NCBI RefSeq assembly: GCF_023101085.1
Contig: NZ_CP064703.1
Location: forward strand, 7,192,001-7,256,000
From: Bradyrhizobium sp. 170
GTDB taxonomy: Bacteria > Pseudomonadota > Alphaproteobacteria > Rhizobiales > Xanthobacteraceae
DNA length: 64,000 nt
Reading direction: 5' to 3'
Shown here: positions 1,357 to 49,253 of the stretch, in pieces
How the letters are laid out: the number at the start of each line of letters is the position of its first letter
How positions within the stretch are numbered: position 1 is the stretch's first letter
Notes under the pieces: generated by a model
What the model was told of the DNA's origin: nothing
Seen by the model: the letters and a program-made list of their open reading frames with translations, nothing else
Database searches by the model: none
Made by a program: the position numbers and the translations under genes

Positions 1357-1789
1357 TCCTCGGGAGGCAGCCTGCTGGGCTCTTACACTGTTCCGGAGGA
1401 TCGGACGCCACCAGTGAAATGCTGCTTGCCTGAGCATTCGCGCCCACGGCAGCTAGATTAGAGCTAGTCCACTCGTGTGCCCAATCGCCTCGGTTAGCGC
1501 AGGTGGGGCGACAAGTCTGAAGTTGGAGGTAGATCGGAAGTAGCCGGCCGACTGCAAAATCGACGCGAATGACCTTCAGGCGACCGCAAGCTTTCGATCG
1601 ACTTCCGGTTTGCGCCAACACCGGACGTCCCCACAACGACGCGAATGACCCGGAGCAGACTTTACCGCAATCGAAATAAGCTTCGGCGTTCAACGCTACT
1701 GCCGACCATTTCGCCGACGTGAGCATCGCATCTGCGAAGATCGTATTGGGACTAACAGAACGACGGCAGTCGGCGGCGCCAACCGGTAG
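1357..1789. other. Intergenic stretch with no supported gene
   Basis: Nothing convincing is coded here. The 12-base word CGACGCGAATGA occurs twice (near 1561 and 1637) and again near 49195, so the stretch probably holds degraded copies of an interspersed repeat. Confidence 0.4.
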
Positions 1790-3004
1790 TCACGAGAAAT
1801 CCTGCCTCAGTGTGGCGGCGATCTGTTGCAGCGCCCAGTCGACCTGATCGCTGGAGATAACAAGCGGCGGGGCGATGCGAATCGTGTGCCCGTGTGTGTC
1901 CTTGGCGAGGATGCCTCGGGTCTGCAGGGCCTGACAGTAGCGACGTGCACCGCCTGCTTCCGGATGAAGCTCGACGGCCAGCATCAGCCCGCGTCCGCGC
2001 ACTTCCCGGATCGTGTTGCTGCGGATGCCGCTCAGGCCATCGAGAAAGCGGGTGCCCTGGGCGGCTGCGTTCTCGATCATCCCTTCCTCGACCAGCACGC
2101 GCAGCGCGGCCCGAGCCACCGCACAGGCCAGCGGATTGCCGCCGAAGGTCGAACCGTGTTGACCAGGTTTCAGGGTGCCGAGCACCGCGTTGTTCGAAAG
2201 CACGGCCGACACTGGGTAAAAGCCGCCGGACAACGCCTTGCCGAGCAGCGTGACATCCGCCTCGATGCCCTCGTGCTGTTCCGCGAGCAGCTTGCCGGTG
2301 CGGCCGAGCCCGGTCTGGATCTCGTCCAGAATCAGCATCACGTCGTGCGCGGCGCAGAGTTCGCGCACTTCTGTAAAGTAACCTGACGGCGGGATGACGA
2401 CGCCAGCTTCTCCCTGGATCGGTTCGACCAAAAAGGCGACCGTGTTGGGCGTGATTGCCTTCTTCAGCGCCGCGGCATCGCCGAAGGCGATGATCTTGAA
2501 GCCCGCCGCGAACGGTCCGAAATGGTCACGTGCCGCCGGGTCGGTGCTGAAGCCGATGATGCCAAGGGTGCGGCCGTGAAAATTATCGGCGCAGACGATG
2601 ATTTCGGCCTGCCCGTCCGGCACTCCCTTCACCTCATAGCCCCATTTGCGCACCGACTTGATCGCACTCTCCACCGCTTCGGCACCGCTGTTCATCGGCA
2701 GCACCTTGTGGGAGCCGGTCAGCGCCGCGATCTCTTCGTAAAAGAGGGCCAGCTGGTCGTTGTGAAAGGCGCGCGACGTCAGCGTCAGCCGGCCCGCCTG
2801 CTCCACCATCGCGGCCAAGATCTTCGGATGGCAGTGGCCCTGATTCACCGCGGAATAGGCGGAGAGGCAATCGAGGTAGCGATGGCCCTGCGTATCCCAA
2901 ACAAAGACGCCCTCGCCCCGCGACAGAACGACGCCGAGCGGTTCGTAGTTCTGGGCGCCAAAGCGCGCTTCCCTCGCGATGAAATCAGTGACCGATGGAT
3001 CCAT
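1790..3004 (-). CDS. rocD: Ornithine--oxo-acid aminotransferase
   Basis: 404 residues, the normal length for this class III PLP-dependent aminotransferase. It transfers the delta-amino group of ornithine to 2-oxoglutarate, giving glutamate semialdehyde and glutamate in arginine/ornithine catabolism. Visible landmarks are NSGAEAVE (residues 105-112, phosphate binding), NFHGRTLG (141-148), the LILDEIQTG segment with Asp227, and LLGKALSGG with the Schiff-base lysine Lys256. The first ATG gives a full-length protein. Other class III aminotransferases (acetylornithine, 4-aminobutyrate) are the main alternative, but the N-terminal [19 protein letters not shown] and [11 protein letters not shown] are typical of RocD. 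An inverted repeat about 195 bp upstream could be its control site. Confidence 0.92.
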
Positions 3005-3731
3005 GTTTCGTCACTCCAGTTGGAGCGAACTGGCAAGCAGTGGGCTATCGCCATTTTCCAGCCTGCGAATGCCCGATTATCATCATCAAGTTACCACAGG
3101 CATTTTGCTTGCGGACACATTGGGTGACGCTAAACGGCACTGCCACTCCCTATCGGGCTGGACAGAAACAGCACGGCGCGCCTCCTTGCCAACTCTCATT
3201 ATAAGGTATTGACTTATAAGATGATTTGGCAATGCTCACCCCGAAAGACCGCACCGTGTGGTGCACTCGGCTGGCAACATCCTGCGGACTTATCAACATC
3301 GGACGTCGAACCAGCGCTCTGCTGGGTCTGCTACTGTCGGGATTGTGTTGAAAAGTCCTTTTTCGCTGATGACCGAAAATTCTCAGGACCGCTGGTGCGT
3401 TCCCCTTGCTGCAAGTTAAGGGAACCACATGAATTACCGCAAAAACGATCGCTGGCCCTCGTATCGATTCTACAGCGCCTTGCAGCGGCTGAAATCGCCA
3501 ATGCGCTACATTTGCGAGATTTTCGGAGCCCCGCGATTTTCGAGTTTTTCAACACAATCGTCGGTAAAGCGGACATCGGAAAAGCTTGCCGGCTAACCGA
3601 CCACTTCCAACTAGCCTGCCTCAATCTAAGCCATGGCCTGAAATGGCGCGCCGGCCGGGGCCGACTACAATGGACCTATCATGTTATTCCTGCTTTTGTT
3701 TGGAACGGCCTCCAACTCGAGAGACTAGAAT
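3005..3731. other. Long gene-free stretch with a probable insertion-sequence end remnant
   Basis: No reading frame here resembles a protein. Around 3338-3362 the sequence GGGATTGTGTTGAAAAGTCC closely matches the start of the IS1182-type element near 52605 (GGGATTTTGTTGAAAAACTC), so this is probably a solitary end of a lost insertion sequence. The rest is unassigned. Confidence 0.4.
3199..3219. promoter_or_regulatory. AT-rich inverted repeat upstream of rocD
   Basis: TTATAAG (3199-3205) and CTTATAA (3213-3219) are perfect inverted arms around a 7-nt spacer in an otherwise GC-rich stretch. It is probably an operator or an AT-rich promoter element. It could serve rocD, about 195 bp away on the minus strand. 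The regulator is unknown. Confidence 0.4.
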
Positions 3732-36234: not shown

Positions 36235-36729
36235 ATGCGTACCGACCTCTCTCTCTGCTTCAAAGATGAGTGTGCGGCACTCGAACTTGTCGAGGCCTGC
36301 ATCTGGCCGAACGGGGTTGTGTGTCCACATTGCGGCGAAAATAGCCGAACTAGTCTCCTAAGGGGATTCAGTACCAAGACCGGCACACGCAAGTGTTATG
36401 GCTGCCGGAAGCTGTTCTCGGCGCGAACAGGCACAATGTTCGAGTGCAGCCACGTCCCATTTCACAAATGGCTGAAGGCTCTCTTCCTGACCGGGTGCGG
36501 CACGGAACCTATCAAGCCATTTCAGCTCAGCCGGGCTATCAATGTCTCCTTCAAGACCGCCGCCCTCATGATCGCGCAGATCAACCAGTCTGCCGTCGAA
36601 TGCGGAATACGAACCTCTGACGATAAAGCCGAGACGACCCTGCCTGCGCACGAGCGCTCCACGCTGGCTCCGTCGGAGTTGCCAACGGCTGGAGAACCGC
36701 AAATCTTGACCGTGAACTCACACGCATAG
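36235..36729 (+). CDS. IS1595-type transposase zinc-ribbon protein lacking the nuclease domain
   Basis: 164 residues. The start resembles IS1595/ISXO2 transposases: a zinc ribbon (CPHCG and CYGC about 25 residues apart), then LFSARTGTMFECSHVPFHKW and a helix-turn-helix-like segment (FQLSRAINVSFKTAALMIAQ). The DDE nuclease domain that should follow is missing; the last 50 residues are Ser/Thr/Pro/Glu-rich and unlike a transposase. It is either a truncated relic or a domesticated DNA-binding protein. The ATG at 36235 has no strong ribosome-binding site. It sits beside the polysaccharide operon control region. Confidence 0.65.
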   Translation: MRTDLSLCFKDECAALELVEACIWPNGVVCPHCGENSRTSLLRGFSTKTGTRKCYGCRKLFSARTGTMFECSHVPFHKWLKALFLTGCGTEPIKPFQLSRAINVSFKTAALMIAQINQSAVECGIRTSDDKAETTLPAHERSTLAPSELPTAGEPQILTVNSHA

Positions 36730-42587: not shown

Positions 42588-42728
42588 ATGAGCAAACCAG
42601 GTCTCGACGGACATCACCGCAACAAGGATGGCGAAATCAGCGGCAAGCACGGCAACACCCTTGTCCGCACGCTGCGTAAAGTTTACGGGCAGGTTTTGCG
42701 GCCGGGTATCCGGAAACCGCGAAACTGA
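42588..42728 (+). CDS. Small hydrophilic protein with GEISGKHGNTLVRTLRKVYG core
   Basis: 46 residues, ATG preceded by GGGAGAGCAGA. Its core (DGEISGKHGNTLVRTLRKVY) resembles a recurrent family of small rhizobial/phage-type proteins containing DGxI-x-KxGdTLVxTLRxxYG. Those I recall are usually longer at the C-terminus, so this one may be shortened (ends RPGIRKPRN). Function unknown. It lies in the small-gene stretch and may be of phage or island origin. Confidence 0.5.
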   Translation: MSKPGLDGHHRNKDGEISGKHGNTLVRTLRKVYGQVLRPGIRKPRN

Positions 42729-43061
42729 GTGAGATAATGTTTCATCTCAATGAGACCTCGTTAAGCTAACTCCGCCGCGATCACGAGACGGACCACTTGG
42801 AACACAAGATTACTCAGGAATCGAAATGATGGGCCTCGCTGTCGAGCTCGGGCGAAGAAATGACCCCCGTGGTCGGAAGCCCTCCATTGACGCCGGAGGA
42901 AGGCGAGCGCCTTCGAAAGCTAGCGTTGACGGGCATAAGTGTCGCCGCGATGGCGAAGCAGTGCACCGCAGCATGGCAGCGGACCGCAACCGAGACGCCC
43001 GGTTGAAGATAGTGGTGGCCAAGTCGCGTAATCAGGGGTTAGGGCTGAAGGCGAAGGGGAG
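42729..43061. other. Gene-free stretch upstream of the alpha-CTD-like gene
   Basis: No gene is supported; GAAGGGGAG at its end may serve as ribosome-binding site for the next gene. Confidence 0.35.
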
Positions 43062-43706
43062 ATGAAACAGGTCGGTGCCAGACACGATATCATTCGGGAG
43101 TGGCGCTCACTTCCGAAGGAACAACGACAAACGGACAAGCAGGCCGAAGCGTTCGCGATGCAGATAAAAGACAAATACAAATTCTCTAACGACAGCGCAA
43201 ACCCATATCAAACCGTCAGGGGTTGGCTGCTGAGTTACCTATCGCTTAACCGCGGGCTTGGAGTGAATGCCAAAGACAAAGGGGAAATGCCCTACGACGA
43301 GAAAAGCACCGATCCTGGCCTGTCTGCTGCTGAGCGAAAAGCTCTCAGAGTGCGGGAGGCGCAAGAGGCGATCGCCGACCATGAAGAAGCCCAGACAGCA
43401 TTCCATGAAAATCGGGAGCGCCTCCGCAAAGAACGCCTGGTTCGAGAGGCGACCGAGGGTCCGATGCTCGCTCCCACTCCAGAACTGCCGGACGATACGC
43501 CGATCGAACGCGTATTGTTTTCCACCAGGATCCAGAACGCTCTCCGAGCAGCCGACCTGAAAACCGTTGGCGAGGTGCGCGAGATATCGGACGAGACACT
43601 GATCAGCCTTCCGGATTTTGGAAAGGGATCGCTCTCTGATCTACGCAGGAAATTGGGACTGCCGTCGACGGACGGGGTTAGATCCTTGGGCAAAAAGCCC
43701 GCCTGA
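43062..43706 (+). CDS. Protein with C-terminal domain like RNA polymerase alpha-CTD
   Basis: 214 residues. Residues 1-65 (HDIIREWRSLPKEQRQTDKQ, NPYQTVRGWLLSYLSLNR) look like a helical DNA- or protein-binding domain; 88-130 are strongly charged and probably coiled coil. Residues 148-200 read PIERVLFSTRIQNALRAADL, then TVGEVREISDETLISLPDFG and KGSLSDLRRKLGL, the helix-hairpin-helix pattern of the alpha C-terminal domain. By alignment with E. coli alpha, Arg156, Asn159, Gly187 and Ser190 match the DNA-contacting Arg265, Asn268, Gly296 and Ser299, while Lys298 is Gly. The core, sigma and dimerisation parts of RpoA are absent. It could bind UP-element DNA or activators and alter transcription; this is inference. 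Confidence 0.65.
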   Translation: MKQVGARHDIIREWRSLPKEQRQTDKQAEAFAMQIKDKYKFSNDSANPYQTVRGWLLSYLSLNRGLGVNAKDKGEMPYDEKSTDPGLSAAERKALRVREAQEAIADHEEAQTAFHENRERLRKERLVREATEGPMLAPTPELPDDTPIERVLFSTRIQNALRAADLKTVGEVREISDETLISLPDFGKGSLSDLRRKLGLPSTDGVRSLGKKPA

Positions 43707-43782
43707 TTTGCTGATTTGACAATTCCCCGCCGGGTAGTTTTGTGCGTTTGCGCGGTGCCCGCCATGGCAGTTGGAGAGTGCG

Positions 43783-44085
43783 ATGCATAAGGCTACGACC
43801 TTCGAACACGGCGGCAAGGTCTACGAAGTTCGCGCGATCCCGACGTTAAACGGTTGGAAGGTTCGCATTTTCGTCGAGGGCATCCCGGCAACTGGCTTCA
43901 CTTATTCAGTCGACGCCGAAGTCTATCAAGATGCTGCGATCGATGGAGTGCCGGAAGATTTGGTGGCCGGGCTGATGGAAACAGCGGAGCGTGATTTTCG
44001 GCGCGGCCTTGCCCAGGAATTGGTGGCCGCCGAAGAGGCTACCGACGACGATATCGCGGCGGAAAACGATAAATTCAAACCATGA
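43783..44085 (+). CDS. Small hypothetical protein, acidic C-terminus
   Basis: 100 residues from the ATG at 43783, preceded by GGAGAG; the TTG upstream is part of that ribosome-binding site. The sequence starts MHKATTFEHGGKVYEVRAIP and folds plausibly as beta strands followed by a helix (AAIDGVPEDLVAGLMETAER) and an acidic tail (EEATDDDIAAENDKFKP). No known domain. It belongs to a run of small plus-strand genes of unknown role. Confidence 0.6.
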   Translation: MHKATTFEHGGKVYEVRAIPTLNGWKVRIFVEGIPATGFTYSVDAEVYQDAAIDGVPEDLVAGLMETAERDFRRGLAQELVAAEEATDDDIAAENDKFKP

Positions 44086-44225
44086 GATCACCCCCTGGCG
44101 CTCTAGCGAGATCCAGAAGCGGCCAGCTGACGCCGCGAATACCACCGGACGCGCAGTAGCCAAGCCCTCACGAGCGGCTTTCGCAGGTGCACTATTGCCA
44201 TCGACCGCAGGTTGCGGTCGGTCGG

Positions 44226-44283
44226 TTTGATTGTTGTCGGACGACCGGCTTGAACCGGCGCGCCGTAGGCGCATATTCCCGAG
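44226..44283 (+). promoter_or_regulatory. 58-nt leader, copy 1, before a small gene
   Basis: TTTGATTGTTGTCGGACGAC continuing to GGCTTGAAC and the hairpin GCGCCGTAGGCGC, ending directly at the ATG at 44284. It aligns without gaps to 44639-44696 (43 of 58 bases identical), which likewise ends exactly at a start codon. Confidence 0.6.
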
Positions 44284-44528: not shown

Positions 44529-44638
44529 CGCGGTCTGCACGGCCTGCGGGGCTGCGCTAGAGTCGTGGTGGAAAAGCACCCACGTTCCCTCATTCGAACT
44601 TGTCAAACGTCCGGACGGAAAGCCCGGTAGTAGGTCAG

Positions 44639-44696
44639 TTTGATTGTGGCAGGATGACTGGCTTGAACGGCAGCGCCGGAGGCGCATATTTGGATA
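44639..44696 (+). promoter_or_regulatory. 58-nt leader, copy 2, before a small gene
   Basis: TTTGATTGTGGCAGGATGAC through GGCTTGAAC to the hairpin GCGCCGGAGGCGC, ending at the ATG at 44697. Same length as copy 1. GGAGG lies inside this hairpin 14 nt before the ATG, so the ribosome-binding site could be sequestered. Confidence 0.6.
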
Positions 44697-46689: not shown

Positions 46690-47586
46690 CTAACGCTGCA
46701 GAGGCCCCGGGGTCGCCATCGCCGCGACGCGGTGCTTCACCGCGTTCTGCACCTTCTCGAAGGCGCTCACCTCGATCTGGCGCACGCGCTCGCGCGAGAC
46801 GCCGAATTCCTCGGCCAGCTCCACAAGCGTGATCTGTTCCCCGGCGAGCCGGCGCGTCTCGAAGATGCGCCGCTCGCGCTTGTTGAGCACGGTGAGCGCA
46901 TCGGACAGCGTCTTGCGGCGGTTATCGAACTCCTCGCCCGCGGCGAGCGTCGTCTCCTGGTCCGGGGATTCGTCCACCAGCCAGTCTTGCCACTCGCCGG
47001 AATCGCCGTCCTCGCGGATCGCGGCGTTGAGCGAGGCGTCGCCGCCGAGCCGCCGGTTCATGCAAATCACGTCCGTTTCGGTGACGCCGATCCGCCGGGC
47101 GATGATCTTCACCTGGTCCAGCCGCATATCACCATCGTCGAGGACGGAGATTTTGCTCTGGGCCTTGCGCAGGTTGAAGAACACCTTCTTCTGGTTGGCC
47201 GTGGTGCCCATCTTCACCAGCGACCACGAGCGCAGGATGTATTCCTGGATCGCCGCCTTGATCCACCACACGGCGTAGGTGGCGAACCGGAAGCCCTTCT
47301 CCGGCTCGAAGCGCTCGACCGCCTGCATCAGGCCGACATTGCCCTCGGAGATCGCCTCGGAGATCGGCAGGCCGTAGCCGCGATGGTCCCTGGCGATCTT
47401 GGTCACGAGCCGCAGATGGCTGGTGACCAGCTTGTGCGCCGCGTCGCGATCGCCGTGCTCGCGCCAGCGCTTGGCTAGCATGTATTCTTCCCGGCGTTCC
47501 AACATCGGGAACCGCCGGATTTCCTCAAGATAACGGGTGAGGCCGGGTTCGGCCGTAAGGATCGGCAGGGCCGCGTTGCGGGCCAT
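46690..47586 (-). CDS. rpoH: RNA polymerase sigma-32 factor
   Basis: 298 residues, standard RpoH length. Region 2 is intact (LVTSHLRLVTKIARDHRGYG, LPISEAISEGNVGLMQAVER, FATYAVWWIKAAIQEYILRS). The RpoH box QKKVFFNLRKAQSKI is diagnostic. Region 4 (TLVELAEEFGVSRERVRQIE) recognises the -35. It directs heat-shock and related stress transcription. Rhizobia usually carry several copies. It is divergent from a cysteine-rich MarR regulator with two direct repeats in the 95-bp gap, and a truncated duplicate lies 1 kb away. The C-terminus ends MATPGPLQR. Confidence 0.95.
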   Translation of the reverse strand: MARNAALPILTAEPGLTRYLEEIRRFPMLERREEYMLAKRWREHGDRDAAHKLVTSHLRLVTKIARDHRGYGLPISEAISEGNVGLMQAVERFEPEKGFRFATYAVWWIKAAIQEYILRSWSLVKMGTTANQKKVFFNLRKAQSKISVLDDGDMRLDQVKIIARRIGVTETDVICMNRRLGGDASLNAAIREDGDSGEWQDWLVDESPDQETTLAAGEEFDNRRKTLSDALTVLNKRERRIFETRRLAGEQITLVELAEEFGVSRERVRQIEVSAFEKVQNAVKHRVAAMATPGPLQR

Positions 47587-48465: not shown

Positions 48466-48590
48466 GACGAAGTGATCGAATAATTTTAGTTGTTTGCTGC
48501 CGTGCATGAGTCCGAATCTGGGCACATTTCGGACGTAGCGCGATGTCTCAGTTGAGTCCGTTAAGCGCTCCGGAGCGGACGTGGATTATC
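48466..48590. repeat. Interspersed repeat, module A
   Basis: GACGAAGTGATCGAATAA (48466-48483) followed by TGCATGAGTCCGAATCTGGG and TTTCGGACGTAGCGCGATGT. The same word occurs at 50325, 52501 and 58720; on the minus strand it reads YSITSS. Confidence 0.65.
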
Positions 48591-48654
48591 CTCAAAATAG
48601 TTGATGTCGGCTGCCCCTGATTTTGCGGCCCCAGTGGCATTTACTTCTCCCTCA

Positions 48655-49110
48655 GGGATGGAGATTTTGCTCTGGGCCTTGCGCAGGTTGAAGAACACCT
48701 TCTTCTGGTTGGCCGTGGTGCCCATCTTCACCAGCGACCACGACCGCAGGATGTATTCCTGGATCGCCGCTTTGATCCACCACACGGCGTAGGTGGTGAA
48801 CCGGAAGTCCTTCTCCGGCTCGAAGCGCTCGACCGCCTGCATCAGGCCGACATTGCCCTCGGAGATCGCCTCGGAGATCGGCAGGCCGTGGCCGCGATAG
48901 TCCCTGGTAGTCCCTGGCGATCTTGGTTACGAGCCGCAGATGGCTGGTGACCAGCTTGTGTGCCGCGTCGCGATCGCCGTGCTCGCGCCATCGCTTGGCT
49001 AACATGTATTCTTCCTGGCGCTCCAACATCGGGAACCGCCGGATTTCCTCAAGATAATGGGTGAGGCCGGGTTCGGCCGTAAGAATCGGCAGGGCCGCGT
49101 GGCGGGCCAT
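48655..49110 (-). pseudogene. Truncated, frameshifted duplicate of rpoH
   Basis: Nearly identical to the N-terminal half of the gene at 46690-47586: MARHAALPILTAEPGLTHYL, through the frame break, then YAVWWIKAAIQEYILRSWSL and QKKVFFNLRKAQSKIS. A 10-bp tandem duplication, TAGTCCCTGG twice at 48898-48917, is absent from the intact copy and shifts the frame. Similarity ends abruptly just after the RpoH box, so regions 3 and 4 are missing. Upstream sequences of the two copies differ from the start codon outward. A recent partial duplication is the likely origin. Confidence 0.85.
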
Positions 49111-49253
49111 AATCCAGCCTTGGAGACATGCCCGCCTATCCTGAGAATGTCCGTTCACTGGGGTAGAATGGAAGTCGCCGTGGTCCGGTCAACCGACGCG
49201 AATGATCCAACTCGGACGTGATGACCCCGCGTGCTCTTGCTGCGCCGCGCCGG

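Follow-up and report, generated by a model that had tools for sequence, protein, structure and literature searches.

The 64,000-nt stretch of the Bradyrhizobium sp. 170 genome analyzed here (NZ_CP064703.1, positions 7,192,001 to 7,256,000; referred to as the window, in whose own numbering positions are given) contains a gene for a 214-residue protein ending in a domain related to the C-terminal domain of the RNA polymerase alpha subunit (alpha-CTD). We show that this domain is a free-standing, strongly diverged alpha-CTD, which is separated from RpoA, stands under selection and occurs in modular small proteins. The interpretation that we favor, with middling confidence, is that the protein would act apart from polymerase, as a DNA-binding accessory regulator of transcription or a DNA-bound adaptor.

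Pfam model PF03118 (RNA_pol_A_CTD) matched residues 145-198 with 40.6 bits (cut-off 23.8, E 2.1e-10), and the structure model showed the alpha-CTD fold for this domain, both of which bear out the initial annotation of this part as alpha-CTD-like. No second Pfam family was detected at E values up to 1 among 24736 models, although the HMMER filters discard most hits with E values beyond roughly 0.1; an unrelated helix-hairpin-helix (HhH) family of repair or ribosomal proteins, mentioned initially as the finding that would speak against the assignment, was thus not encountered. Eight RpoA models of NCBIfam also matched the protein, the earliest from residue 97 and the best with 32.7 bits vs. a cut-off of 277. 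No alpha N-terminal assembly and dimerization domain was found in Pfam (to E 1) or by the RpoA models, which start at residue 97 or later, and the claim that the part needed for core assembly is absent therefore stands. For the N-terminal domain (N-domain, residues 1-66) neither Pfam nor NCBIfam gave a match, and its model had no clear counterpart in a fold comparison. The middle of the protein had been described as a charged coiled coil. A single long helix is indeed predicted at residues 89-132 and its heptad stripe is conserved (permutation p 0.024), but the hydrophobicity of this stripe is no higher than chance (p 0.61), so that a classical coiled coil is not established.

Residue conservation was surveyed in 119 proteins (the window protein and its homologues among the matches listed) together with 54 loci projected onto the window domain, which gave 131 unique domain strings with at most six gaps, all weighted equally, near-identical ones included. 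In the numbering counted on a stretch of E. coli alpha, we take Arg156, Asn159, Gly187, Gly189 and Ser190 to correspond to positions 265, 268, 296, 298 and 299; with this proviso the alignment agrees with the residue mapping proposed at first, including the change of Lys298 to Gly, and adds two changes that had escaped notice, Lys291 to Ser182 and Asn294 to Asp185. Arg265 is retained in 124 of the 131 family domains, Gly296 in 129, Ser299 in 125 and Asn268 in 97. Identity to the domain of the genome's own RpoA is 17-32% (mean 24%, 125 domains), compared with a mean of 64% within the family. The mean net charge is +1.3 (125 members) vs. -1 for the own RpoA domain, and the loss of lysines is therefore partly offset elsewhere.

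A protein search returned 969 homologues of the 214-residue protein among 1848 candidates at E<=0.001, and a domain-profile search 3696 proteins among 7998 scored at the same threshold. In the best 120 matches of each search, protein lengths cluster by eye near 80-85, 139 (helix and domain) and 205-216 residues (the window type); the full-length database members are many and distinct, with 61-95% identity. Within Bradyrhizobium the domain family was found in 37 of 265 genomes, with up to five (G156) and six (G206) places in a single genome. This count uses a cut at a best E value below 1e-9, chosen after the table had been seen (RpoA itself scores about 1e-6), at which more divergent members may be missed, and it excludes genome G291, where the hit belongs to another protein, one that carries two alpha-CTDs. 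Of the 53 family places, 41 were examined, namely the window and 40 other loci. Twenty of these have a helix match; in three of the 20 (L088, L095, L096) the helix is encoded in a frame other than that of the domain. The N-domain is present in five, one of them partial. At E<=1e-6, members of the N-domain family occur in 63 of the 257 Bradyrhizobium genomes searched. In other genomes of the genus, relatives of the N-domain stand alone, many of them in frames of 64-93 residues; the protein combining N-domain, helix and alpha-CTD is encoded in four of the 257, that of the window included. Among 119 genomes of the bacterial family the full-length protein was seen in this genome only. PF03118 matched 76 of 81 genomes of the order, the five others showing that RpoA itself was missed there, and short-frame matches came from this genome (two) and from G022. 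In a scan of named genomes 13 loci were recovered, of which 11 carry Bradyrhizobium in the title and two are titled as alphaproteobacterial assemblies. Among 72,556 plasmid records the domain turned up once, in a conjugative plasmid of Bradyrhizobium, and it was not found in the phage and viral collections. With this distribution, and with a G+C content of 55.8% in the gene vs. 59.6% in the window, the family looks like a patchy, accessory one that is nearly confined to Bradyrhizobium.

Several other alpha-CTD matches were recorded in these scans. In G022, a member of another genus of the same bacterial family, a 204-residue frame on the minus strand (L022, near 1501-1677) opens with a region that includes an alpha-CTD-like domain (38.4 bits) and then runs on into a further part. 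The G291 protein mentioned above (L131, contig C706, about 2353-3207) is a 407-residue frame with two tandem RpoA-like alpha-CTDs outside RpoA (PF03118, 158.6 bits over two stretches); the segment ahead of them matches T5orf172 weakly, below the threshold (E 0.053). The present genome also encodes a short protein (L005, G000:C1:7976607-7976756; 1384-1683, plus strand) that scores 25.3 with HHH_5 (cut-off 27) and 24.2 with RNA_pol_A_CTD (cut-off 23.8), and its neighboring genes appear phage-like by eye. Genome G438 of the order has two RpoA-sized alpha-CTD frames, of 426 and 348 residues (C21:64818-64991 and C6:1411-1587).

Selection was assessed from the ratio of non-synonymous to synonymous substitution rates (dN/dS; Nei-Gojobori-type estimates, own script) in 66 pairs formed by 12 of 16 extracted modules. 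Saturation affected 23 pairs; of the 43 computable ones, 42 gave values of 0.07-0.34, and the close pair L083/L037 gave 0.449. For the window gene the ratio was 0.18 over the full length vs. L083 (N-domain 0.19, helix 0.17, domain 0.155) and 0.20 vs. L037. These estimates indicate purifying selection on the protein of this family.

According to the reading that we favor, the alpha-CTD-like domain would still contact DNA through the retained Arg265 (Arg156) and the HhH hairpin, with an altered preference, and would not dock on sigma. The helix and the N-domain might make further contacts, either with DNA or with other proteins, and the whole would work as a small accessory regulator of transcription or as an adaptor bound to DNA, with a neighboring gene perhaps contributing. 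A candidate for the latter is the small partner gene directly downstream (Table 1), which was found at 14 places in 12 of 257 genus genomes (E<=1e-5). Nine of these places directly adjoin an alpha-CTD gene, and at the other five no such gene was present within the 3 kb fetched on either side; 11 of the 12 genomes belong to the 37 with the domain family, all of which are taken, for the hypergeometric comparison, to lie within the 257. The partner protein had no Pfam match above the cut-off and no NCBIfam or PADLOC match. The gene may also be nested. Met76 is nearly invariant in the alignment, including the short forms that start there. Inside the 214-residue frame the stretch ahead of it reads aaagacaaaggggaaATG, identical in L036 and similar in L037 and L083, while the leader aaggcgaaggggaaATG precedes the start in three of 11 short forms (L081, L082, L089) and a similar one in three more (L038, L039, L046). 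Retention of this internal start suggests that 214- and 139-residue forms may both be made, and a second, shorter product of the gene is plausible on these grounds. A broader version, in which the free alpha-CTDs of Bradyrhizobium form a class of regulators independent of RNA polymerase, with nested 214- and 139-residue products, new DNA targets, a re-tooled hairpin and a partner protein, is offered as a tentative proposal, more doubtful than probable.

Several observations weigh against the favored reading. For the closed complex of E. coli, Arg265 and Asn294 are described as inserting into the minor groove, with Lys291 and Lys298 contacting phosphates (PMC7822876). Asn294 is kept in only 8 of 131 family domains (Asp occupies this position in 88%), Lys298 in 4 of 131 and Lys or Arg at 291 in 9 of 130, and none of the 131 retains the complete DNA-contact set. 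As the contacts besides Arg265 are mostly lost, the domain may bind DNA only weakly or no longer at all. Of the full-length relatives in the genomes fetched, L036 (SSUT77) is the closest; it ends early and carries Met in place of Arg265, and its comparison with the window gave a dN/dS of 0.525 (N-domain 0.71, helix 0.16, domain 0.32; codons behind the L036 stop included). Taken with the mostly low remaining ratios, these data indicate that the protein has been kept by selection but that single copies decay. At two of the nine partner places, in G280 and G348, the adjoining gene is a 48-residue piece of the domain only, 100% and 94% identical to that of the window. Of the 41 places of the family that were examined, only nine have the partner gene beside them, and it is thus an associate rather than a fixed part. 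Ahead of the start of five of the 11 short forms (L040, L086, L097, L098, L101) the sequence is different.

The same loss of DNA contacts, at a time when other positions are strongly conserved (Arg at 282 in 131/131; Thr277, Gly279 and Asp286 in 98-99%), would be expected if the HhH domain were a protein-protein adaptor without DNA binding, through which either the N-domain or the partner is linked to some other complex. We regard this as rather unlikely, given that Arg265 and the hairpin positions 296 and 299, the part that touches DNA, are retained in about 95% or more of the domains. The initial annotation had suggested possible competition with polymerase, or tethering of factors to it, at UP elements. 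As a decoy of this kind, the free domain would occupy these elements, or bind activators that otherwise touch the alpha-CTD of RpoA, and would thereby lower transcription at chosen promoters. The shared fold in the model and the retention of Arg265, Asn268, Gly296 and Ser299 support such a role in part. However, a competitor should retain the shared surface, and the family departs from it both in its low identity to the own RpoA domain and in the disappearance of Asn294, Lys298 and Lys/Arg291 from nearly all members. The acidic residues 259 and 261 of alpha-CTD face sigma; these positions are Arg150 and Leu152 in the window protein, and both are acidic in 2 of 131 domains. With the needed surface mostly lost, UP-element competition is rated lower, as distinctly unlikely. 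Finally, a functionless fusion that is merely carried along in an accessory region of mosaic and decaying make-up, in which small open reading frames (ORFs) are shuffled and joined by chance, would fit the rarity of the three-part form in the genus, the apparently shortened upstream neighbors, metagenome copies joined to unrelated sequence (e.g., P0105 and P0241) and the relaxed ratio vs. L036, but we give it little credence in view of the low dN/dS across the whole fusion vs. L083 and L037 and the many distinct full-length database members.

Table 1. Features of the alpha-CTD-like gene and its surroundings in the window.
Feature	Position	Strand	Basis or remark
214-residue coding sequence: N-domain, long charged helix, alpha-CTD-like domain	43062..43706	+	ATG start, no internal stop
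N-domain, residues 1-66, predicted three-helix bundle	43062..43259	+	structure model, predicted local distance difference test (pLDDT) 87; relatives
Purine-rich leader and ATG (Met76), like the start region of the 139-residue form; possible second start	43272..43289	+	leader comparison
Long charged helix, residues 89-132	43326..43457	+	structure prediction, heptad analysis
Alpha-CTD-like domain, residues 147-199	43500..43658	+	Pfam, model, alignment
Arg156 codon	43527-43529	+	inside the alpha-CTD-like domain
Small partner gene, directly downstream	43783..44085	+	ORF list: TTG start at 43771
Small ORF (MSKPGLD type), apparently shortened copy	42588..42728	+	also upstream of the N-domain in relatives
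Small ORF with LTPEE...ISVAA stretch	42860..43006	+	

The database protein P0095 has a different N-terminal part; in it a longer ORF of the MSKPGLD type is fused to helix and alpha-CTD. Upstream of the region, the ORF at 36235-36729 (plus strand) contains a transposase zinc-ribbon domain (Zn_ribbon_IS1595). Behind the partner gene lies a 61-nt direct repeat (44217-44277 and 44630-44690, 82% identity). The window also holds a gene for a sigma-70-family factor at 46690-47586 (minus strand; Pfam regions 1.2, 2 and 4) and, close to it, a second copy split across two frames at 48561-49158 (minus strand).

No description of this family, or of free-standing alpha-CTD proteins in Bradyrhizobium, was present among the literature matches listed. 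Named entries exist in databases: P0093, 'RNA polymerase, alpha chain C terminal domain [Bradyrhizobium erythrophlei]', is a 139-residue member of the same family (87% identity over 65% of the query). This protein and JGI entries called 'DNA-directed RNA polymerase alpha subunit' are named by their domain only, and the 139-residue forms have no N-domain. Francisella is reported to have two non-identical RpoA subunits and so a second alpha-type protein in one cell (PMC3294249); both are alpha subunits of RNA polymerase there, in contrast to the window protein with its missing assembly domain. With the alpha-CTD of RpoA (PF03118; E. coli, and the own RpoA at G000:C1:6129240-6129407) the window domain has in common the fold, the HhH hairpin, Arg265, Gly296, Ser299 and, in most of the family, Asn268. 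It differs in its low identity, in its junction to a helix and N-domain instead of an alpha N-terminal domain, and in the loss of Lys/Arg291, Asn294, Lys298 and the 259/261 acidic pair that is seen in nearly all family domains. Ordinarily the alpha-CTD is encountered as a flexible tail attached to RNA polymerase. A family under selection, in some genomes present in several copies, that employs this domain without polymerase and with an altered DNA surface would illustrate the reuse of a core transcription component as an accessory regulator; it also offers a way to test which contacts the alpha-CTD requires to bind DNA when it is not part of the polymerase.
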